From Erysipelotrichaceae bacterium (GTDB lineage: Bacteria > Bacillota_I > Bacilli_A > Erysipelotrichales > Erysipelotrichaceae), in assembly GCA_017431225.1 (NCBI GenBank), contig JAFRLM010000007.1:124001-188000 (forward strand): DNA of 64,000 nt. The letters are read 5' to 3'. This document shows positions 5,487 through 36,319 of the stretch, piece by piece; the first letter of the stretch is position 1, and each line of letters opens with the position of its first letter. A program made the translations under genes and the position numbers. The notes under the pieces were generated by a model. The model ran no database searches. It saw only the letters and a list, made by a program, of their open reading frames with translations, and was not told where the DNA came from.

Positions 5487-6443
5487 TTATTCATCGTCTG
5501 CGAGAACCTTGCGGAGGATCTCCATTCCTTTTTCGGCAAGATCCAGGATCGCTTTCTTTGCTTTGCGGATATCTTCCTGTGTTTCCGGACGATTGTAGTA
5601 ATCATCGAAGCCCTTGCGGACATTCGTGCTGACATCTTTGACCGTTTTGACGACACTCTGTACATCATCGCTCATGAGGAACAGATCGACCGGGGACGGT
5701 TCTTTCTTTTCTTCCGGTTCAGCTTTGAATTCTTTTACAGGCTCTTCTGCCGGGGTCTCTTCTGCGGGAGCTTCTTCTTTACAGCAGCATTCTTCTTTCT
5801 GTTCAGATTCGCCGCAGCAGCATTCAGCCGGCTTTTCCTCTTCGCTTTTGAATTCGCATTCGCATGTTTCCTCGACGAAATCGGTAACTGCGTCCTTGAC
5901 CTCTTCGACAGTATCGTTTACGGTCTCGCAAGCACATTCCGCAGTTTCCTTGACTTCTTCTTTGACTTCCTCGACTTCATCGCGGACTTCTTCAAAGGCT
6001 TCCTTGACGTCTTCGACTGTTTCTTCAACTGCTTCTTCAACGGTCTCTTCCGGAGTCTCTTCAGTCACTTCTTCAGACGGTTTCTCGACCGGGGTCTCTG
6101 CGACCGGTTCAGTCGGTGTTTCCTCAGCCGGAGTTTCTTCTGTTTCCTTCACGGCGTACTCCGCGCCGAAGCTGCGGATACGGTCGATCGTGAAATTGCA
6201 GGCTTCTTCGCAGCGATCGCCGACTCTCTGCAGGAACTCATCGATCTTTTCATCCTGCGCAAGCTCGTTGACGGTCGATTCGATCTTATTGCCGGCATTC
6301 TTAACGACTTCGATGGATTTATTGACTAATTCGTCCAGCTTTTCCTTATCTTCATCGTTCAGCAGCGGACGCTGTTCTGCGGCCGCAAGACGGATTTCAA
6401 GTATCTTTTCATTCATTTTCTGGATTGCTTCTCTAACGTTCAT
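5487..6443 (-). CDS. Acidic, Glu/Val-rich coiled-coil protein with a central cysteine cluster
   Basis: 318 residues, family not recognised. The first ~95 residues are predicted helical (MNVREAIQKMNEKILEIR onward). A long acidic arm of EETP/VEE/EEV repeats follows, then a Cys-rich patch at about residues 175-230 with CACE, CECE, CCCGES and CCCKEE, then a second acidic stretch, and a helical C-terminus (about 250-318). There is no signal peptide or membrane segment, so it is probably cytosolic. Clustered Cys pairs suggest metal binding, but this is inference. The arm resembles those of the proteins at 33167-36319 and 52880-54892. The ATG is preceded by GTAGGAGGT, a strong ribosome binding site. 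Confidence 0.8.
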   Translation of the reverse strand: MNVREAIQKMNEKILEIRLAAAEQRPLLNDEDKEKLDELVNKSIEVVKNAGNKIESTVNELAQDEKIDEFLQRVGDRCEEACNFTIDRIRSFGAEYAVKETEETPAEETPTEPVAETPVEKPSEEVTEETPEETVEEAVEETVEDVKEAFEEVRDEVEEVKEEVKETAECACETVNDTVEEVKDAVTDFVEETCECEFKSEEEKPAECCCGESEQKEECCCKEEAPAEETPAEEPVKEFKAEPEEKKEPSPVDLFLMSDDVQSVVKTVKDVSTNVRKGFDDYYNRPETQEDIRKAKKAILDLAEKGMEILRKVLADDE

Positions 6444-6556: not shown

Positions 6557-7420
6557 ATGGGAGTTTACGAGTTACTGTCCTCGAAAGAGGATGCACGCAA
6601 AGGTTCGCCTTTGTGTGAGTTCAACGGTTTCCTGGAAGATTACCTGGAAACAATCGCCGACGAGGACGAAAATAAAGATGTCCTCTCAGAAGTCTTCGGC
6701 ATCGATAAGGATGTCAAGATCATCGTCAACCTCCGAATGGGTATCTCCAGAGAGTCCATTTCTAATCAGATCATCCGTTATAAAGACATTTTTAAATTGG
6801 AAGACAAGGCCGTTGTAATTCCTTATGTTCTTTATGCAAAAAATGATAAGGAAGAAAAGGCTTTGATCCTTGTAGGCGGTGACTATATTTATGCGAAAGG
6901 CATGTATTATTCACTTACAGAACCAGGCAGCGAATTCCAGAATTCCAAGAATGACATCGTTGCTATGGAGCTCACAGACAAGGACCGCGTTAAGGAGGTC
7001 TATTCGCAGCTATTCACCAAAAGGGCAGGACAGATCCAGCGTGATCTGGACCGCCGTCATTTCAACAACTATGAGGAGAGCTTTGCACACGCATTAGAGT
7101 TATCCGACGGCATCCGCAGTGAGCTGGAAGAAAAGCTCGAAAACACGGAGGAGAAGGAGGAACTGATCCGTTCCTGCATCAGCCGCTGGTTCCTGATCAA
7201 GAAGTTCACATATGTTCAGTACATGGTCGATAAGACGATCCTGAACACGAAGTTCGCCGGAAACGTCAAGGCGCAGCGTAATCAGGCTAAGCAGAACGCT
7301 GACAACATCCGCTTCGTTTCGATCTCCGACATGTGGAGAGGAAAACTGGAAAAGCCGGTTTCCGAAGAGATCCAGCCGGTCGTCGAGGCTCCGGAAAGCG
7401 AAGTTGCCGAAGAGGCTTAA
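6557..7420 (+). CDS. Hypothetical protein, first gene of the AAA+ neighbourhood
   Basis: 287 residues, not recognised. It appears soluble: a mixed alpha/beta N-terminal half (residues 1-150, with VKIIVNLRMGISRESI and ALILVGGDYIYAKGMYY), a charged helical middle (about 155-205, Arg/Glu-rich) and a basic helix around 240-250. The C-terminal tail (last ~25 residues) is acidic and Pro/Val/Glu-rich (PVVEAPESEVAEEA), echoing the Glu-rich proteins elsewhere in the window. AGGAGG sits 7 nt before the ATG. A terminator follows the gene, so its link with the XpaC/AAA+ genes downstream rests on proximity only. Confidence 0.75.
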   Translation: MGVYELLSSKEDARKGSPLCEFNGFLEDYLETIADEDENKDVLSEVFGIDKDVKIIVNLRMGISRESISNQIIRYKDIFKLEDKAVVIPYVLYAKNDKEEKALILVGGDYIYAKGMYYSLTEPGSEFQNSKNDIVAMELTDKDRVKEVYSQLFTKRAGQIQRDLDRRHFNNYEESFAHALELSDGIRSELEEKLENTEEKEELIRSCISRWFLIKKFTYVQYMVDKTILNTKFAGNVKAQRNQAKQNADNIRFVSISDMWRGKLEKPVSEEIQPVVEAPESEVAEEA

Positions 7421-7462: not shown

Positions 7463-7489
7463 AAGGAAGTGCGTTGTACTTCCTTTTTT
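7463..7489 (+). terminator. Intrinsic terminator directly before the XpaC-like gene
   Basis: AAGGAAGT pairs with ACTTCCTT around a 7-nt loop, with six T in total after ACTTCC. The next promoter's -10 begins 5 nt after the T-run. Confidence 0.75.
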
Positions 7490-7493
7490 CGTG

Positions 7494-7499
7494 TATAAT
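7494..7499 (+). promoter_or_regulatory. -10 TATAAT of a predicted leaderless gene
   Basis: TATAAT with TG immediately upstream ends 7 nt before the ATG at 7507. There is no Shine-Dalgarno. Any -35 would lie within the preceding terminator stem. Confidence 0.6.
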
Positions 7500-7506
7500 T
7501 AGTTAC

Positions 7507-8433
7507 ATGAGAAGAAGAAGTTCAGGGTTTGGGTTTTGGTTGTTCTTTTTTATTCTGCTAAGCAGCGGATTTGAATTGTTCTACGGTCTGTTCGAACTTG
7601 CGATCGTCGGTATCTTCGGATACACGATCTACCAGATCATCAAGAACATCATCCAAAGCAGCCAGCGCAGAAACAACACAAGAACCACAACAACCAACAC
7701 CAAAACAACCAACATGTCCAACAAGGAACGCAATCTTATCGATCAGCGTTTGCGGGAGTATTTCAAAGACCACTACCGTCTGCCGGTCGTGGATAACATC
7801 GCTCTCACTACGCAGAACGGTTCTTTTACTACTGTCGAAAACCTGTACATTTCCTATGGCGAGGAAAACATCCTCTCACTCGAGGAATTCCAGAAATATG
7901 ATCCGGTCCTTTACAATTCCGTCGTGAATCTGCTTCTGGCCTTTGCCAAGCAGAAGGAAGACGTCATGGGTGCCGAAGTCAAGACAAACGAGGTCAAGGC
8001 CGGCAAGAAGCTTTCCGATGCCCAGAAGTATATCGATCAGATCAACCAGCTGAATACAGACATCCCGAACGAGGAGATCTCCAACAGCCTGTTCCAGACC
8101 TGCGCTCTGCTGAAGCAGATCGATCTGTCTGAAAAGGAAAACAAGGAAGCAAAGCTGTCCAAACTGTATGATTACTATCTGCCGATCCTGACCGGTATCC
8201 TCGAGAATTACCGCAATCTGCAGCAGACCGGAACGAATTCCAAGGAATTCAAGGATTCCGAGACACAGCTTATCAAGACGATCATCCTGATCAATGAAGC
8301 TTTGAAGACGATCAATGAATCGCTTCATGAAGAAGACTATATGAACCTTTCCGCGGATATCACGACTCTTCAGTCACTGCTGAAGAAGGACGGTCTCGTA
8401 GAAAGCAATCCTTTCAAGGAGGATGCAAAATGA
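7507..8433 (+). CDS. XpaC-like membrane-anchored protein
   Basis: 308 residues from the ATG at 7507. An upstream in-frame TTG (7474) would put the -10 box inside the coding sequence, so it was not used. Basic MRRRSSGFG is followed by hydrophobic segments (about residues 8-50), then a Thr/Asn-rich linker and a soluble helical region. The C-terminal ~110 residues (YDYYLPILTGILENYRNLQ, NEALKTINESLHEEDYMNL, LLKKDG) match the pattern I know for XpaC/5-bromo-4-chloroindolyl phosphate hydrolysis family proteins, often found beside TelA-type toxic-anion-resistance proteins. No TelA is visible here; instead a small protein and an AAA+ ATPase follow in 4-nt overlaps. Probably membrane-anchored with a cytosolic domain. 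Confidence 0.7.
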   Translation: MRRRSSGFGFWLFFFILLSSGFELFYGLFELAIVGIFGYTIYQIIKNIIQSSQRRNNTRTTTTNTKTTNMSNKERNLIDQRLREYFKDHYRLPVVDNIALTTQNGSFTTVENLYISYGEENILSLEEFQKYDPVLYNSVVNLLLAFAKQKEDVMGAEVKTNEVKAGKKLSDAQKYIDQINQLNTDIPNEEISNSLFQTCALLKQIDLSEKENKEAKLSKLYDYYLPILTGILENYRNLQQTGTNSKEFKDSETQLIKTIILINEALKTINESLHEEDYMNLSADITTLQSLLKKDGLVESNPFKEDAK

Positions 8434-8954
8434 GTCAGAGAAACAAATCAAACGACTTCCTCGACGAAGTCTTTTCGGAACTTGACAAAAACCTTACCAG
8501 CAATGAAAGTCAGGAAGAACTCTTAAAGAGAGTCCTTTCTTACAATTCCGGCAATTCCATTAATTACAGAACAAACTACAATTCCCGGGTCGTCAAAAGA
8601 CCGTCTCTGCCGACCGTCAACCAGATCGGTGAATTCAGCGGACGCTATGACTGCTTCCAGAAACTGCTGATGAACGTGGACTACGGTCCGAATAACTCCA
8701 GCGAGTATGTGGAAGGCCATGCAGAGGCACTCAATAAGTACATGGCACAGGCACAGGCTGCTTCCAAAGACCTTTCGGTCGTAGAAGCGCGTGTCAACGA
8801 AGAGATCACGAAGTATAACCACATCAACCGTGAAAGGATCTTTGTCAAAGGATATTATGACGGCCTGATCTATGTTTACAGAGCATTAAAGAAATCCAAG
8901 GAACTGATCGTTACCAAGATCCAGAACGAGTTACGCAAGGGGTTGAATCTATGA
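8430..8954 (+). CDS. Small hypothetical protein co-translated with the AAA+ protein
   Basis: 174 residues, no recognised domain. The N-terminal 60 residues are Asn/Ser/Arg-rich and likely disordered. From about 65 onward the protein is predicted helical (EYVEGHAEALNKYMAQAQA and VEARVNEEITKYNHINRER), ending in a basic helix. Its start overlaps the stop of the XpaC-like gene by 4 nt and its stop overlaps the AAA+ start by 4 nt (ATGA), so the three are translationally coupled. GGAGG precedes the ATG. It may be an adaptor between the membrane protein and the ATPase, but that is inference from position. Confidence 0.7.
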   Translation: MSQRNKSNDFLDEVFSELDKNLTSNESQEELLKRVLSYNSGNSINYRTNYNSRVVKRPSLPTVNQIGEFSGRYDCFQKLLMNVDYGPNNSSEYVEGHAEALNKYMAQAQAASKDLSVVEARVNEEITKYNHINRERIFVKGYYDGLIYVYRALKKSKELIVTKIQNELRKGLNL

Positions 8955-10951
8955 AAAAAGTCGATAAAGATGAACTGATGAACGAAGTGCTGGGCAAAAA
9001 GCGCCCGTATTCTTCCGTTTATACCGATTCGATGGATATGCTGAAGAGCACCGAGGATGAACTGAACCGTATCATCGCTGAGAACGAAAAGAAGCTGCAG
9101 GAGATGACTGCCCGCAGCAGCTACAGTGAAGATAAGATCAATTCATTGAAAGCGGAGATCGAGAAAGATTTCAACGTCAAGATCGATCTGCCGGAGACAG
9201 TCGTAGTCGGCAAGGATTCCAAAGAAGTCTTTGAAGAGATCGAGAAGGAAATGAACGAGATCTGCATCGGTCAGGAAAAAGCAGTCGATGATATCACTGT
9301 CGCTTTCCGCCGTCCGTTCGTGACCGGTTCCGATCCGAAGAAGATCCGCAACTCCATCCTGCTGATGGGTTCCAACGGTTCCGGCAGACACCTGCTCGTC
9401 GAAACGATGGCAGAACTGCTCAAGAAACACGGTCTCACCGTTTCTTCCGAAGTCATCGCGATCGATATGTCCCGTTACCAGTCTTCCTCTCAGGAAGCGC
9501 TCTTCCTGCAGGATCTCTATGCTGCTCTTCAGGGCAAGAATCCGGTCATCATCTTTGAGAACTTCACGCAGGCAAGCCCGGTCTACAACCGTATGCTGGC
9601 AGACCTTGTCATCAACGGACAGTGCATCCTCAATAAGCGTTATGTCTTTGCGAATAACCAGCTGCAGGAAGCGACTCAGAAACTGACAAAAGAAGCGATC
9701 GATCATCTCGACGGCAACAATAAGACCCTGGTCTTCATCACCGAAGGAAAAGCATCTTCCGTCATGGATGTCTTCGGCAAGAGCTTCGTCGAAACGATCG
9801 TCGATCAGATCAAGACAGTTCCGTATGATGAGGGTTCACTGAAGATCCTCGTTGATAAGATGCTGGATGATCTTTCTCTCAAATGCAAGACCCAGCTTGA
9901 GATCGAGGTGGATGTTGCCCAGAGTTTCAAGGATTATCTCCTTACCTGCTATGAACCGAACGACGGGATCGATTCGATCTCTCCGGTCATCAATAAAGTC
10001 TATGACAACCTGGTCGAACTCGCACTGCGCCAGGACGGCCTTAACAGTCTGGTGCTGATCCATGAGGGAACAGACGTTGTTGCCAAGGATGCGGAACACA
10101 GTTTCCCGCTGAGCATCAAAAACGATTCCGAAGCCGAGAGAGCCGAGATCCAGAAGGAACTCGACGAGATCGTCGGTCTGGATAAAGTCAAGGATTATCT
10201 CCTGAGCCTGGAAAAACAGGTCAAGGTCAACCAGCTGCGTCGTCAGAAGGGACTGAAGACCTACGATGTTTCCAAGCACATGATCTTTACCGGCAACCCG
10301 GGTACCGGTAAAACAACGATCGCCCGTATCATCTCCCGCCTGATGAAGGCGAGCGGGATCCTCAGACAGGGCCAGCTCGTTGAAGTTACCCGTGCGAACC
10401 TGGTCGGTAAATATGTCGGTCATACCGCGCCGCTGACGATGGATGTCATCGAAAGTGCGCTGGGCGGCGTCCTGTTCATCGATGAAGCGTATTCGCTTTA
10501 CCGCGGCAGAGACGATTCCTTCGGACTGGAAGCGATCGATACACTGGTCAAGGGCATGGAAGATCACCGTGAGGACCTGATCGTTATCCTCGCCGGATAC
10601 GATAAGGAAATGCAGGAATTCCTGACTGCCAACACCGGTCTTAAATCCCGTTTTGCGAACATCATCCACTTCGAGGACTACACCGGCGAAGAACTGATGC
10701 TGATCGCCTGCTCGATCGCGAAGGGCAAGGATTACAAGATCGCGGAAGAAGCAAAGCAGCCGCTGCAGAACTACTTCACGCTGATGCAGGCAAGAAAAGA
10801 TGTTACCTCCGGTAACGGCCGTATGGCCAGAAACCTGGTCGAGGACGCGATCCTGCGCCAGTCTGCCCGTCTGCTGAACAATCCGGAAGATGATATCGAT
10901 GTGCTGAAACTGGAAGACTTCGATCTTTCCAATATGACAGAAATGAAATAA
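8951..10951 (+). CDS. Two-module AAA+ protein: degenerate Clp-like module plus active CbxX/SpoVK-type module
   Basis: 666 residues. Residues 1-95 are a charged helix. Residues ~95-330 resemble a Clp-family D2 ATPase (CIGQEKAVDDITVAFRR, ILLMGSNGSGRH, IDMSRYQ), but the Walker A reads GSNGSGRH (140-147) without the Lys, and the Walker B region reads IIFENF (200-205) without the Asp. Residues ~400-660 are a canonical CbxX/CfqX/SpoVK AAA+ domain: IVGLDKVK, Walker A GNPGTGKT (448-455), pore-loop-like NLVGKYVGHT, Walker B VLFIDEAYS (507-515), Arg finger GLKSRF (563-568). The second module should hydrolyse ATP; the first looks structural or regulatory. It is last in the three-gene coupled operon and has AAGGGG before its ATG. 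Confidence 0.85.
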   Translation: MKKVDKDELMNEVLGKKRPYSSVYTDSMDMLKSTEDELNRIIAENEKKLQEMTARSSYSEDKINSLKAEIEKDFNVKIDLPETVVVGKDSKEVFEEIEKEMNEICIGQEKAVDDITVAFRRPFVTGSDPKKIRNSILLMGSNGSGRHLLVETMAELLKKHGLTVSSEVIAIDMSRYQSSSQEALFLQDLYAALQGKNPVIIFENFTQASPVYNRMLADLVINGQCILNKRYVFANNQLQEATQKLTKEAIDHLDGNNKTLVFITEGKASSVMDVFGKSFVETIVDQIKTVPYDEGSLKILVDKMLDDLSLKCKTQLEIEVDVAQSFKDYLLTCYEPNDGIDSISPVINKVYDNLVELALRQDGLNSLVLIHEGTDVVAKDAEHSFPLSIKNDSEAERAEIQKELDEIVGLDKVKDYLLSLEKQVKVNQLRRQKGLKTYDVSKHMIFTGNPGTGKTTIARIISRLMKASGILRQGQLVEVTRANLVGKYVGHTAPLTMDVIESALGGVLFIDEAYSLYRGRDDSFGLEAIDTLVKGMEDHREDLIVILAGYDKEMQEFLTANTGLKSRFANIIHFEDYTGEELMLIACSIAKGKDYKIAEEAKQPLQNYFTLMQARKDVTSGNGRMARNLVEDAILRQSARLLNNPEDDIDVLKLEDFDLSNMTEMK

Positions 10952-10976
10952 AAGAGCCATGCGCTCTTTTATTTTT
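10950..10976 (+). terminator. Intrinsic terminator after the AAA+ gene
   Basis: AAAAGAGC (10950-10957) pairs with GCTCTTTT (10963-10970) across CATGC, followed by ATTTTT. Confidence 0.75.
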
Positions 10977-19069: not shown

Positions 19070-20323
19070 GTGCTGCTGAGCCGCAAGACAGTTATAAAAC
19101 TCAACGAAAATCAGTCCAATATTCTTGGACATCTTTGTTATGCGGCATATAAGCTTTGGAACGTGTGTAATTACGAGAGGAAGAATTACCGGGAACTGGG
19201 GCAAAAGAAGCGCCCTGACTGGTACTGCCAGAAGAAAGCTCATAAAGATGACCTTTGGTTCAAATCTCTTCCTTCCCAGACAGCACAGGAAGTATGCAAA
19301 AAGCTGGATAAGGCATGGAAAAGTTACCACGTTCTTCTGAAAACAGGCGGAATCAAAAACCCGAATCCGCCCGGGTTTAAACAGGCACCGATGGAAATCA
19401 CCTATATGCAGAACGGGATCGTACACACGAAAAAAGACAAGAAGGTGCGGCTTAGCCTCCCCGGGAAACTGAAGAAATACATGCGCGCAGAATATGGTAT
19501 CGAAGACAATTACCTTTATCTGGAAAATCAGATTTTCCAGGATACAGATACCATCAAGCAGATCAAAGTGTATCCTCCGGAAAACGGGAAAGCTAAGGTG
19601 ATCGTGATCTATGAAGCGAAGTGTCCTTTGCCCATGGAGGGAAACGGCCATTATCTGTCCGTTGATCTCGGACTGCATAACCTTTTCGCTTGTTACGACA
19701 GTGACGGGAAGACATTCATTGCGGGACGGAAATATCTGAATATCTGTTACCGGTATGACAAAGAGATCGCACGGATACAGGCGCAATGGAGTAAGATCCA
19801 GTCTGCAAAAGGTATCGAATACCCAAAATCATCTGCGCATTTGAGAAAGATCTACCGGAAGAAGTATAACTGTATCAATGATTACCTCCACAAGGTCACC
19901 AGAATGATTGCGGAATACTGCAGGGAAAAAGGTATTTCTGCGGTTGTGATCGGCGATATCCGAAACATTTGTAAAACAGGCGATCTTGGACACGTGGTAA
20001 ACCAGAAGCTTCATAGTCTTCCCTATTCCAGAATCTATGAGATGCTGTCCTACAAGCTTGCACTGTACGGTATTCAAATGGTCAAAGAGAAAGAAACATA
20101 TACCAGTCAGTGCAGTCCGTATGCGCCTTCTGTAAGCAGAACGTATGCGGATAAAAAGAAGCGCGTAAAACGCGGTTTGTATAAAGAGGGAAAGGATGTA
20201 TTCAACGCAGATGCGGTAGGAGCCTTCAATATCCTGAGGAAGTATCTGGCAGAAAACGAAAAAGAAACCGAGATTCCGGTGAAGGGAATATCCGATCCCA
20301 TTGTAATCAAAGCAGCTGTATAG
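19070..20323 (+). CDS. tnpB: TnpB RNA-guided nuclease (variant with relocated RuvC-II acid and no zinc finger)
   Basis: 417 residues from GTG 19070; AGAAGGGA lies about 11 nt upstream. RuvC-I is YLSVDLGLHNLFA (Asp). RuvC-III is FNADAVGAFNIL (Asp). The RuvC-II strand reads VVIGDIRNI where the usual form is IED, so the classical Glu is absent; a Glu in KEKETYTSQC is the likely substitute, as known for a TnpB subgroup. The usual four-Cys zinc finger is reduced to one Cys (QCSPYAPSVS). TnpB proteins cut DNA guided by an omega RNA from the element's right end, favouring retention of the element. Confidence 0.88.
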   Translation: MLLSRKTVIKLNENQSNILGHLCYAAYKLWNVCNYERKNYRELGQKKRPDWYCQKKAHKDDLWFKSLPSQTAQEVCKKLDKAWKSYHVLLKTGGIKNPNPPGFKQAPMEITYMQNGIVHTKKDKKVRLSLPGKLKKYMRAEYGIEDNYLYLENQIFQDTDTIKQIKVYPPENGKAKVIVIYEAKCPLPMEGNGHYLSVDLGLHNLFACYDSDGKTFIAGRKYLNICYRYDKEIARIQAQWSKIQSAKGIEYPKSSAHLRKIYRKKYNCINDYLHKVTRMIAEYCREKGISAVVIGDIRNICKTGDLGHVVNQKLHSLPYSRIYEMLSYKLALYGIQMVKEKETYTSQCSPYAPSVSRTYADKKKRVKRGLYKEGKDVFNADAVGAFNILRKYLAENEKETEIPVKGISDPIVIKAAV

Positions 20324-33166: not shown

Positions 33167-36100
33167 ATGGCTAAATTATCGAGAACACAGAAGTATGCGG
33201 AACTGAGAAACCGTCTGGAAAACGACCATGAGGTCGATCTGAATACGGCTCATCTCAGCGAGTACGGAAACAAGCTGAACGATCTTCAGCAGAAGATCAC
33301 CGAAGAGGCAAAAGACAATTTAACGGGACTGGGCGAAAAAGTCGAAGACAAGGTCGAAAAAGTCGAAGACAAGGTCGAAAAAGTTAAAGAAACAGTTGAA
33401 GAAAAGCTCGAAGAACTTGAAGAAGGGCTGACCGAAAAGTACAATTTCGTCATTCAGGAGCTGACAGGAGATGTCGATGACTACACCTCAACTTTCGAGA
33501 TCCCGCTTGCGGATATTGCGAAAGAATTAGACTCCGATAAAGCAGATGACAAAGCCAATGAAGCAGTTGAAGAAACCACCGAAGACGTCAAGAAACTCTC
33601 CGATGATGTAATTAATCTTTTCAATTTCGATGAAAAGCCTGTCACAGAAGAACCGGAAAAGATCGTGAGCGAAGTTGTCGAAGTCGCTGAGCCGGTCGTT
33701 GAAAACGTTCCGGAAGTCGTTGAAGAAGTCGCTGAAACAGTAGCGGAACCGGTCGAGGAAGTTGCAGAGACTGTTGAAGAAGTCGCAGAACCAGTTGTTG
33801 AAACTGTTGTTGAAGCAGCTCCGGAAGTTGTTGAAGAAGTTACTGAACCTGTAGCAGAAACTGTCGAAGAAGTTGCAGAGACTGTCGCTGAACCGGTCGT
33901 TGAAGAAGTTGCTGAGACTGTAGAAGAACCGGCAACAGAACCCGAAACACAGGTAGATGAGATCATTCCGGAAAGAGCGGAAGATATCATCCTTGAATGG
34001 ACTGCTGAACGCGAAGGAAAAGCAGAAAAAGCTGAAGAACCGGTCGAAGAAGAACCGGAAAGCCGCTTTGTATTCCCGTGGGATGTAAGAGAAGAACCTG
34101 AAGAGACCCCGGCAGAAGAACCGGCTGAAACCGTTGAAGAACCTGTTGAGACACCGGTAGAAAATGAACCGTTCATCTTCCCGTGGGACAGAAAGAACGA
34201 GACAGAAGAGACCGTTACCGAACCGGTAACTGAGCCCGTTGAAGAACCGGTCGTTGAAGAAGTGACCGAAGTAACCGAGCCGGTCGCCGAGACGGTCGAA
34301 GAAGTCGCTGAACCAGTCGTTGAAGCTGCTCCGGAAGTTGTTGAAGAAGTAACCGAGCCTGTAGCTGAAACAGTTGAAGAAGTTGCTGAGACTGTTGAAG
34401 AGCCGGTTGTTGAAGAAGTCGCGGAACCTGTTGTTGAAGCAGTTGAGGAACCGATCGAGATCATCGTTCCGGAAGTCCAGGAAACTGTTGAAGAACCGGT
34501 TGCTGAACCAGTCGTTGAAACTGTTCCGGAAGTTGTCGAAGAACCGGTCGTCGAAGAACCAGCCGTAGAGACTGTTCCGGAAGTCGTTGAGGAAGTAACT
34601 GAACCAGTCGTTGAGACGGTCGAAGAAGTTGTTGAAGCAGCTCCGGAAGTTGCTGAAGAAGTAACCGAGCCTGTAGCTGAAACAGTTGAAGAAGTTGCTG
34701 AGACTGTTGAAGAGCCGGTTGTTGAAGAAGTCGCGGAACCTGTTGTTGAAAAGGTTGCTGAACCGGAAATCGGAAGCGACAGCACATATCTCTTCCCGTG
34801 GGAGATCGAACAGCCTGCTGAAGAACCGGCCGTAGAGACTGTTCCGGAAGTTGTCGAGGAAGTAACTGAACCGGTCGTTGAGACTGTCGAAGAAGTTGCA
34901 GAGCCTGTTGTTGAAGCAGCTCCGGAAGTTGTAGAAGAAGTTACTGAGCCTGTAGCTGAGACAGTTGAAGAAGTAGTCGAGACTGTCAAAGAGCCGGTCG
35001 TTGAAGAAGTTGTTGAAACCGTTGAAGAACCGGTCGTCGAAGAAGTCACAGAGCCTGTTGTCGAAAAGGTTGAAGAACCGGAGATCGACGCAGAGCCGAC
35101 AAAGATCTTCAATCCATTCTATTTTGCTGAAAAACCGCAGCCGGTCGCTGAACCTGCTGAAGAACCGGTCGTAGAGACTGTTCCGGAAGTTGTTGAGGAA
35201 GTAGCTGAACCAGTCGTTGAGACGGTCGAAGAAGTTGCTGAGCCTGTCGTAGAAACAGTCAAAGAAGTCGCCGAGACTGTCACAGAGCCAGTCGTCGAAG
35301 AAGTTGCAGAACCTGTTGTTGAAGCAGTTCCGGAAGTTGCTGAAGAAGTCACAGAGCCTGTAGTTGAGACAGTTGAAGAAGTCGTCGAACCGATCGCTGA
35401 AACGATCGAGGTCGCTGAACCTGTTGTCGAAACACCGGCTGAACCGGAAGCAGAACCGGTTGACTTCCTGAAAGAAACACTGAACGAAGTAACCGAGTAC
35501 AACAAAGCACAGGGACTCGTTACTGCGGACGAAGTTCCGAATACGATCCTTGATGAGATCAGAGGAATCCATCATGAAGAACCGGTCGTTGAGCCGGTCA
35601 AGGAAGTTGTTCCGGAACCGGTCGAAGAAACAGTTGAACCGGTCGCTGAACCGGTCGTAGAGGCCGTTCCGGAAGTCGTTGAGAAAGCTACTGAACCGGA
35701 AGCAGAAAAGAACGAAAAGGAATTCAACGATACTCTGACACTTCAGATCCACAACATCATGGCTGCTCTTGAAGCCGGTGAAGAAAAAGAAGAAGCGCCG
35801 GCAGCGGAAGTCAAGGATGAAACGAAAGATACTCATCGTTCCGAGATCGAACGCATGATGGGCATCTCCGGAACCTACAGCAAGACTTCTCTCGCAAGCG
35901 AGATCGAAAGACTGATGGGTGAATTCCAGACGGAAGAGAACCCGGTAGTTCAGCCGGAAAAGACTTTCGAGCCGGAAGAAGCTGAAGACAGCACCCGCGT
36001 ATTCGCTGCGGCGGAGCCGCAGGGAGATACGATCGAGCACCCGGTCCTGGCAAAGAAACTCGAAGAACCGGAGCCGGAAGAGGAAGTTGTCGAAGAGACC

Positions 36101-36319
36101 GCCGAGATCGTTGAACCGACAAGCGAATTACTTAATGAAACGAAGCCGTTCATTATCGAAAAAACCAAAACGAATACTGTTATCGAAGACGAAGATGACG
36201 ATGAAGAACCTGCTCCAAGCAAGTTGCTGAACATCATTCTGATCGTGCTTACGATCGCACTGATCGCTGTTCTCGGAGTTGTGATCTACGGCTTATTGAA
36301 AACAGAAGGTATTATCTGA
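33167..36319 (+). CDS. Giant acidic Glu/Val/Pro repeat protein with C-terminal membrane anchor
   Basis: 1050 residues, no known family. Residues 1-100 are a charged coiled coil with the repeat KVEDKVEKVEDKVEK. Residues ~165-900 are dominated by degenerate EPVVEEV/ETVEEVAE/APEVVEEV units with very few aromatics. The short motif FPW[D/E] recurs three times (nt 34072, 34178, 34793), each after an aliphatic/aromatic pair, with a drifted copy near 35105. Two SEIERxMG motifs lie at nt 35840 and 35897. A single membrane helix (about residues 1022-1043, LNIILIVLTIALIAVLGVV) leaves a short tail. There is no signal peptide, so it is probably tail-anchored with a long acidic cytosolic arm. A scaffold or tether role is inference. 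Confidence 0.85.
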   Translation: MAKLSRTQKYAELRNRLENDHEVDLNTAHLSEYGNKLNDLQQKITEEAKDNLTGLGEKVEDKVEKVEDKVEKVKETVEEKLEELEEGLTEKYNFVIQELTGDVDDYTSTFEIPLADIAKELDSDKADDKANEAVEETTEDVKKLSDDVINLFNFDEKPVTEEPEKIVSEVVEVAEPVVENVPEVVEEVAETVAEPVEEVAETVEEVAEPVVETVVEAAPEVVEEVTEPVAETVEEVAETVAEPVVEEVAETVEEPATEPETQVDEIIPERAEDIILEWTAEREGKAEKAEEPVEEEPESRFVFPWDVREEPEETPAEEPAETVEEPVETPVENEPFIFPWDRKNETEETVTEPVTEPVEEPVVEEVTEVTEPVAETVEEVAEPVVEAAPEVVEEVTEPVAETVEEVAETVEEPVVEEVAEPVVEAVEEPIEIIVPEVQETVEEPVAEPVVETVPEVVEEPVVEEPAVETVPEVVEEVTEPVVETVEEVVEAAPEVAEEVTEPVAETVEEVAETVEEPVVEEVAEPVVEKVAEPEIGSDSTYLFPWEIEQPAEEPAVETVPEVVEEVTEPVVETVEEVAEPVVEAAPEVVEEVTEPVAETVEEVVETVKEPVVEEVVETVEEPVVEEVTEPVVEKVEEPEIDAEPTKIFNPFYFAEKPQPVAEPAEEPVVETVPEVVEEVAEPVVETVEEVAEPVVETVKEVAETVTEPVVEEVAEPVVEAVPEVAEEVTEPVVETVEEVVEPIAETIEVAEPVVETPAEPEAEPVDFLKETLNEVTEYNKAQGLVTADEVPNTILDEIRGIHHEEPVVEPVKEVVPEPVEETVEPVAEPVVEAVPEVVEKATEPEAEKNEKEFNDTLTLQIHNIMAALEAGEEKEEAPAAEVKDETKDTHRSEIERMMGISGTYSKTSLASEIERLMGEFQTEENPVVQPEKTFEPEEAEDSTRVFAAAEPQGDTIEHPVLAKKLEEPEPEEEVVEETAEIVEPTSELLNETKPFIIEKTKTNTVIEDEDDDEEPAPSKLLNIILIVLTIALIAVLGVVIYGLLKTEGII
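33660..35480 (+). repeat. Degenerate in-frame coding repeat (Glu/Val/Pro)
   Basis: Many tandem and interspersed copies of GAA-GAA-GTT-GCT-GAA-like units encode EEVAE, EPVVE and ETVEE. Near-identical blocks recur around 34310-34440 and 34640-34750, suggesting internal duplication and slippage or recombination-prone DNA. Confidence 0.8.

Follow-up and report, generated by a model that had tools for sequence, protein, structure and literature searches.

A TelA-coupled operon in Erysipelotrichaceae joins an XpaC-domain membrane protein to a two-module AAA+ protein with a degenerate Clp-like module

Within a 64,000-nucleotide stretch of an Erysipelotrichaceae bacterium genome (contig JAFRLM010000007.1; hereafter the window), three co-directional forward-strand genes encode a membrane-anchored XpaC-domain protein (gene X, 7507..8433, 308 residues), a small soluble helical protein of no known family (gene S, 8430..8954, 174 residues) and a two-module AAA+ protein (gene A, 8951..10951, 666 residues). 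ATGA stop/start overlaps join X to S at 8430–8433 and S to A at 8951–8954. Across the family, the three genes are coupled in their distribution to one another and to the gene for TelA.

Hydrophobic segments occupy the N terminus of X (approximately residues 7–46) and are followed by a cytoplasmic linker domain and an XpaC-like domain (residues 155–285). A transmembrane-like N-terminal window was present in 36/36 homologues tested by hydropathy. Taken alone, the match of X to the XpaC family PF10112 is marginal (E = 3.6e-6, 27.5 bits; curated gathering cut-off 29.8), and the same profile is matched at E ≤ 0.01 by 24 of 30 X relatives, the best at 9.9e-11. No second PF10112 protein was found in the source genome, which is 86% complete. 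S is predicted to be entirely helical (AlphaFold2, predicted local distance difference test score 81.5), and its most conserved stretch reads YxxGHxEALxKY...GYxDGL. Its sequence resembles designed CTPR (tetratricopeptide repeat-like) proteins only weakly (E = 0.007). Fold searches with S returned no significant match (Foldseek best E = 0.28; VIA best Z 6.3), and we rejected assignment to a known fold, the best VIA score being no higher than is usual between unrelated helical models.

The N-terminal module of A (residues ~85–383; 9203..10099, forward strand) resembles the D2 module of the Hsp100 proteins ClpA, ClpB and ClpC in predicted fold and order of landmarks. Profile comparison relates it to Hsp104, ClpC and ClpB (E ~1e-16 to 1e-15; 3.5e-16 for Hsp104), and the predicted fold aligns with ClpA D2 over 266 residues (VIA Z 24.9, root-mean-square deviation 2.8). 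It differs from Hsp100 D2 in lacking the Walker A Lys-Thr pair, the catalytic Glu, the arginine finger and the pore loop, and it precedes the active AAA module rather than following it, with no partner D1. Walker A is degenerate (GSNGSGRH, residues 140–147; 9368..9391, forward strand) and follows a family signature GxxGxG[R/K]H, while Walker B (VIIFENF, residues 199–205; 9545..9565, forward strand) has no catalytic Glu. Across 104 aligned two-module relatives, a set that includes some duplicate records, the Lys and Thr positions of Walker A are occupied by RH (76), KH (16), RY (5), KR (3), RR (2), KS (1) and KT (1), and Glu is found at the Walker B catalytic position in 0/104. The segment corresponding to the D2 pore loop is approximately 13 residues shorter (flanking blocks at profile positions 185/204 versus 642/674 in Hsp104), and no GYVG occurs between Walker A and Walker B of the window's protein. 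In the Hsp100 box F..xFxxRxD another residue takes the place of the Arg, and no arginine finger stands where one is expected. Because the Walker residues, the pore-loop segment and the box Arg are lost, the N-terminal module should not hydrolyse ATP, judging from its sequence. That the GxxGxG[R/K]H signature is nearly fixed suggests a module retained for some use rather than one in decay.

The C-terminal module (residues ~393–660; 10127..10930, forward strand) is a CbbX/SpoVK-type AAA domain followed by AAA_lid_6. It matches TIGR02881 (9.3e-92), TIGR03922 (2.3e-75), TIGR02880 (1.5e-72) and PF17866 (1.9e-14), is 40–42% identical to CbbX, and has a predicted fold close to that of CbbX (VIA Z 25.8 to 3syl). 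Here the Walker A KT and Walker B DE residues are intact in 104/104 relatives, and the Y-x-G pore loop is conserved. The sensor 1 GY signature is present as G549 and Y550, both invariant among 24 aligned relatives; the conserved sensor 1 Tyr of SpoVK, CbbX and EccA is described as part of this signature in PMC10659427. An invariant Asn (N561) lies ahead of the arginine finger. The residue four positions on is K565, with the invariant Arg at R567; the exact Asn-to-finger spacing therefore depends on which of these two is taken as the finger. Sensor 2, the second arginine finger, is represented by R624 and R627, invariant in GNGRxxRN. All three family scores fall below their equivalog cut-offs (SpoVK TIGR02881, 306.7 versus 422.95 bits; CbbX TIGR02880, 244.3 versus 459.25; EccA TIGR03922, 254.3 versus 466.65), and the source genome encodes only one A-like protein; a SpoVK-like role in sporulation was rejected on these two grounds. 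The subfamily, fold and conserved motifs place the C-terminal module with the SpoVK/CbbX/EccA clade, but A differs from its members in genomic context, being encoded with X and S and, in relatives, TelA. It differs as well at the N terminus, where SpoVK carries a short alpha/beta domain, EccA tetratricopeptide repeats and other members a beta-prism; A instead carries the Hsp100-D2-like pseudo-AAA module.

A preliminary description of this locus had placed the three genes and their 4-nucleotide overlaps at the same positions, assigned membrane segments and an XpaC relationship to X, and divided A into a Clp-like module with GSNGSGRH and IIFENF and an intact CbxX-type module. These observations are confirmed by the analyses above. 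It had also taken the AAA+ protein to replace TelA as the partner of the XpaC-like protein, a view that the gene neighbourhoods of relatives overturn.

We surveyed 95 genomes of the same family and found S in 34, A in 38, long X in 39 and strong matches to TelA in 46; the X profile was matched in 46. Where a genome holds both X and A (34 genomes), the two are side by side in all but 4, a total of 30. Given this adjacency and the conservation of the degenerate motif in 104 relatives, neither the X-A pairing nor the motif is due to chance. X accompanies S in 34/34 genomes, which makes X-S the tightest pair, and A does so in 30/34. The preliminary description had named two refuting outcomes, an XpaC match that fails profile search and a lack of co-occurrence of the three genes in other genomes; neither was observed. 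TelA is encoded in all 38 genomes with A, this one included, versus 8 of the 57 without it (Fisher p 5e-19, related genomes taken as independent), and in 34/34 genomes with S versus 12/61 without (p 6e-16, on the same assumption). It is likewise found in 38 of the 39 long-X genomes, adjacent to X in 16. A and TelA are adjacent on one strand in 20/38 A genomes.

The usual gene order in relatives is X-S-A-TelA or X-S-A-XpaC-TelA, the latter in L039, L055, L057, L058, L061 and other loci, where a short classical XpaC joins TelA downstream of A, as it often does. In L055, L058 and L075, XpaC-TelA precedes genes for two more proteins, one LemA-like and the other a membrane protein with a TPM domain, and these may be additional components of the module. 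TelA does not lie beside X in the window's lineage; the single TelA of the source genome (G000:C10) is on another contig, next to parB. Since the AAA+ protein and TelA belong to one module, the TelA-less arrangement in the window is local. In three loci of one genus (L191, L194 and L195), A sits beside a thioredoxin gene, and L191 also has two Hsp20-like genes.

XpaC and TelA are tied to envelope stress in other Firmicutes. In Bacillus subtilis, xpaC-yaaN(telA) belongs to the core sigma-W regulon (PMC3498285), loss of telA leads to nisin sensitivity in Listeria (as cited in PMC12791056), and xpaC is upregulated in an Enterococcus faecium liaR mutant (PMC10269926). The Bacillus operon and its Listeria counterpart lmo1966-lmo1967 share with the loci described here an XpaC-domain membrane protein and TelA, but as described in PMC3498285 and PMC12791056 they contain neither an AAA+ protein nor an S-like gene. 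Compared with the Bacillus and Listeria XpaC proteins, X is longer and has the additional linker domain between its membrane segments and XpaC domain. PMC10659427 presents members of the SpoVK-CbbX-EccA clade as dedicated, narrow-target chaperones with ties to the envelope and to secretion, CbbX acting on Rubisco, SpoVK on MurG and EccA in type VII secretion; client recruitment is ascribed to their N-terminal domains, which vary between members, and they have no associated proteases. Taken together, these chaperone traits and the stress roles of XpaC/TelA make a membrane-localised, narrow-target chaperone the most likely function of the operon. We give roughly even odds to the more specific proposal that, in these gut bacteria of the Erysipelotrichaceae, X-S-A forms a chaperone arm dedicated to the XpaC/TelA envelope-stress system, with TelA or the XpaC/TelA complex as the likeliest client.

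In such a machine, X would fix the assembly to the cytoplasmic side of the membrane and supply the XpaC domain, and S would accompany it as a small adaptor through which, together with X, A could be tethered. We infer that A forms a hexamer, a two-tier ring whose N-terminal tier, descended from an Hsp100 D2 module, would now serve in recognition, assembly or sensing, whether to recruit the client or to regulate. The C-terminal module would hydrolyse ATP and briefly pull a specific client through its Y-x-G pore loop, so that the client would be remodelled, neither degraded nor disaggregated. With TelA or the XpaC/TelA complex at the membrane as that client, the chaperone may activate, assemble or reset the XpaC/TelA machinery, and it may have a role in envelope stress in this organism. 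Pex1/Pex6 and other type II AAA+ proteins likewise combine one non-hydrolysing tier with one active tier. Pex1/Pex6 appear among the fold matches of A, but the likeness is one of functional analogy only: they belong to other AAA subfamilies, differ in order and in membrane partner, and nothing points to homology of the two-tier arrangement. The fullest version of the proposal, a previously undescribed membrane-anchored two-tier machine in which a pseudo-ATPase Clp ring for sensing or client docking sits over a CbbX-type motor acting on the XpaC/TelA complex, is put forward more tentatively. Within the searchable library, our literature search found no published description of the operon, and nothing relevant that links TelA to SpoVK, or XpaC and TelA to any AAA+ protein; prior notice is possible in comparisons of SpoVK operons (PMC10659427) and in older work on the Ter system.

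Several observations weigh against a chaperone dedicated to XpaC/TelA. The Fisher tests behind the TelA coupling count related genomes as independent. Long X occurs without a detected A in 5 genomes and A without long X in 4, and the parts are therefore not strictly interdependent. In some genomes A lies apart from X-S, beside thioredoxin and Hsp20-like genes, and outside Erysipelotrichaceae the two-module AAA+ protein is encoded without X and S. TelA is present in 12/12 tested genomes with such X-less AAA+ loci, mostly outside the family, a count to be weighed against the base rate of TelA there. In the model of A, the relative placement of the two modules is poor (predicted template modelling score 0.49).

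A terminator-like hairpin followed by a T run lies upstream of X (7463..7485, forward strand), and a second spans the stop codon of A (10946..10974, strand unassigned), likely the end of the X-S-A unit. These hairpins flank X-S-A, which thus resembles a self-contained unit; the scan over-reports, finding 12 terminator-like sites versus 5.9 expected in shuffled sequence, so a single hairpin is weak evidence. S is preceded by a good Shine-Dalgarno sequence, AAGGAGG. X has no Shine-Dalgarno sequence, and a TATAAT (7494..7499, forward strand) ends 7 nucleotides 5′ of its ATG, a spacing that points to a possibly leaderless X mRNA. A loose scan, in which a few matches are due to chance, finds this arrangement at 59 of 85 X starts, where TATAAT precedes the start codon by 7–10 nucleotides and a Shine-Dalgarno sequence is absent (for example in L046, L048, L051, L090 and L104–L118). 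It is kept in most members of the window's clade; TelA-linked clades mostly have ordinary leaders. In 12 relatives (L098, L100, L102–L108, L112, L113 and L120), TTAGCACTC sits immediately 5′ of the −10 box of X and matches one half of the heat-shock operator CIRCE (HrcA) without a mismatch. Near-complete CIRCE sites are present at other places in the genomes of these relatives. The window's operon has neither a CIRCE site nor this half-site. Sites with at most two mismatches to CIRCE were found in 8/8 genomes searched, none of them at the operon, and we rejected CIRCE control of the operon, TTAGCACTC being only a half-site.

Among other readings, the likeliest is that A acts on envelope biosynthesis enzymes rather than on TelA or XpaC, with X and S serving only as its membrane recruiters and a shared stress regulon accounting for the TelA link. 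MurG is activated by SpoVK, and EccA1 has a link to mycolic-acid synthesis (both PMC10659427), and co-transcription in a stress regulon would likewise cluster these genes. However, the recurrent neighbour is TelA, not a biosynthetic enzyme. The window has murD and murI 2 kb further downstream, yet of the first 31 loci surveyed just one, L044 from the closest relative, has this pair beside A. We consider this reading unlikely. Less likely again is one in which the X-S pair is the effector and A a regulator that assembles or disassembles a polymer of X, an XpaC-like membrane scaffold. X-S can occur without an adjacent A and X is never missing where S is found, as this reading would have it, but polymerisation of X is unsupported and most S genomes encode A.

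It appears improbable that A works as a general unfoldase or disaggregase tethered to the membrane. The Hsp100 D2 ancestry of its N-terminal module speaks for this, and the half-CIRCE sequence upstream of X in 12 relatives and the Hsp20 and thioredoxin neighbours in one genus hint at proteostasis. Against it, the N-terminal module has lost the Walker A Lys-Thr pair, the catalytic Glu and the D2 pore-loop segment, and the window's operon is without a CIRCE site. We know of no disaggregase in the SpoVK-CbbX-EccA clade. The members of that clade have dedicated clients, according to PMC10659427. The preliminary description had suggested a membrane-tethered remodelling or disaggregating machine; membrane-linked remodelling stands as a reasonable idea, disaggregation is not supported, given the lost pore loop and catalytic residues and the narrow targets of the clade (PMC10659427), and the earlier interpretation is in this sense partly supported. 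A part in anti-phage defence was rejected, PADLOC giving A only a generic AAA match (IetA, 1.7e-11, to the C-terminal module), X none and S one marginal match, and phage profiles matching neither X nor S.

Upstream of the operon, a conserved 287-residue protein (6557..7420, forward strand) with no Pfam family match appears to be an optional companion present at a subset of loci. Wherever its homologues were found among the fetched loci (17/17), they lie upstream of X, at most four genes away and on the same strand. Next to it, on the reverse strand, is a divergent acidic YtxH-like protein (5487..6443; PF12732 E = 1.5e-4, below the cut-off), homologues of which adjoin X or the 287-residue protein in L044 and L047–L052. 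Elsewhere in the window, 33167–36319 encodes an extremely acidic repeat protein of 1050 residues (EEVAETVEEPV-type) with one C-terminal transmembrane segment, whose matches to ZorA, phasin and YtxH look like coiled-coil or low-complexity similarity, and 19070–20323 encodes an IS605 OrfB/TnpB-type protein with a Cas12f-like TNB domain. No Rfam match was found anywhere in the 64-kb window.

The nearest relative of the two-module AAA+ protein in a scan of named genomes, 98% identical in the N-terminal module, is encoded in an Erysipelotrichaceae metagenome-assembled genome (JAUNQE010000003.1). In a phylum-wide sample of 245 genomes, all 13 matches fall in the window's family. More distant relatives (26–32% identity in the N-terminal module) occur in Gemmiger, Faecalibacterium, Fournierella and other Oscillospiraceae, and in a few Lachnospiraceae. 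At two Gemmiger loci (L161 and L164), the AAA+ gene follows one for a secreted or membrane protein with a Cys-rich, Gly-rich tail, CACACAGGGRAGCS; the piece of this protein that was tested matched no Pfam family.

In Firmicutes, TelA and XpaC occur widely and have been linked to tolerance of envelope-active agents such as nisin. An AAA+ protein tightly coupled to them, from a chaperone clade whose characterised members each have a dedicated client or a single narrow context, offers a direct, testable handle on how they work, namely to find its client, and the two-tier machine, if true, would give the stress system a motor. A also adds a new type of N-terminal module to the SpoVK-CbbX-EccA clade, and the strong conservation of this dead Clp domain across Erysipelotrichaceae and Oscillospiraceae suggests that it has a specific, non-catalytic role.

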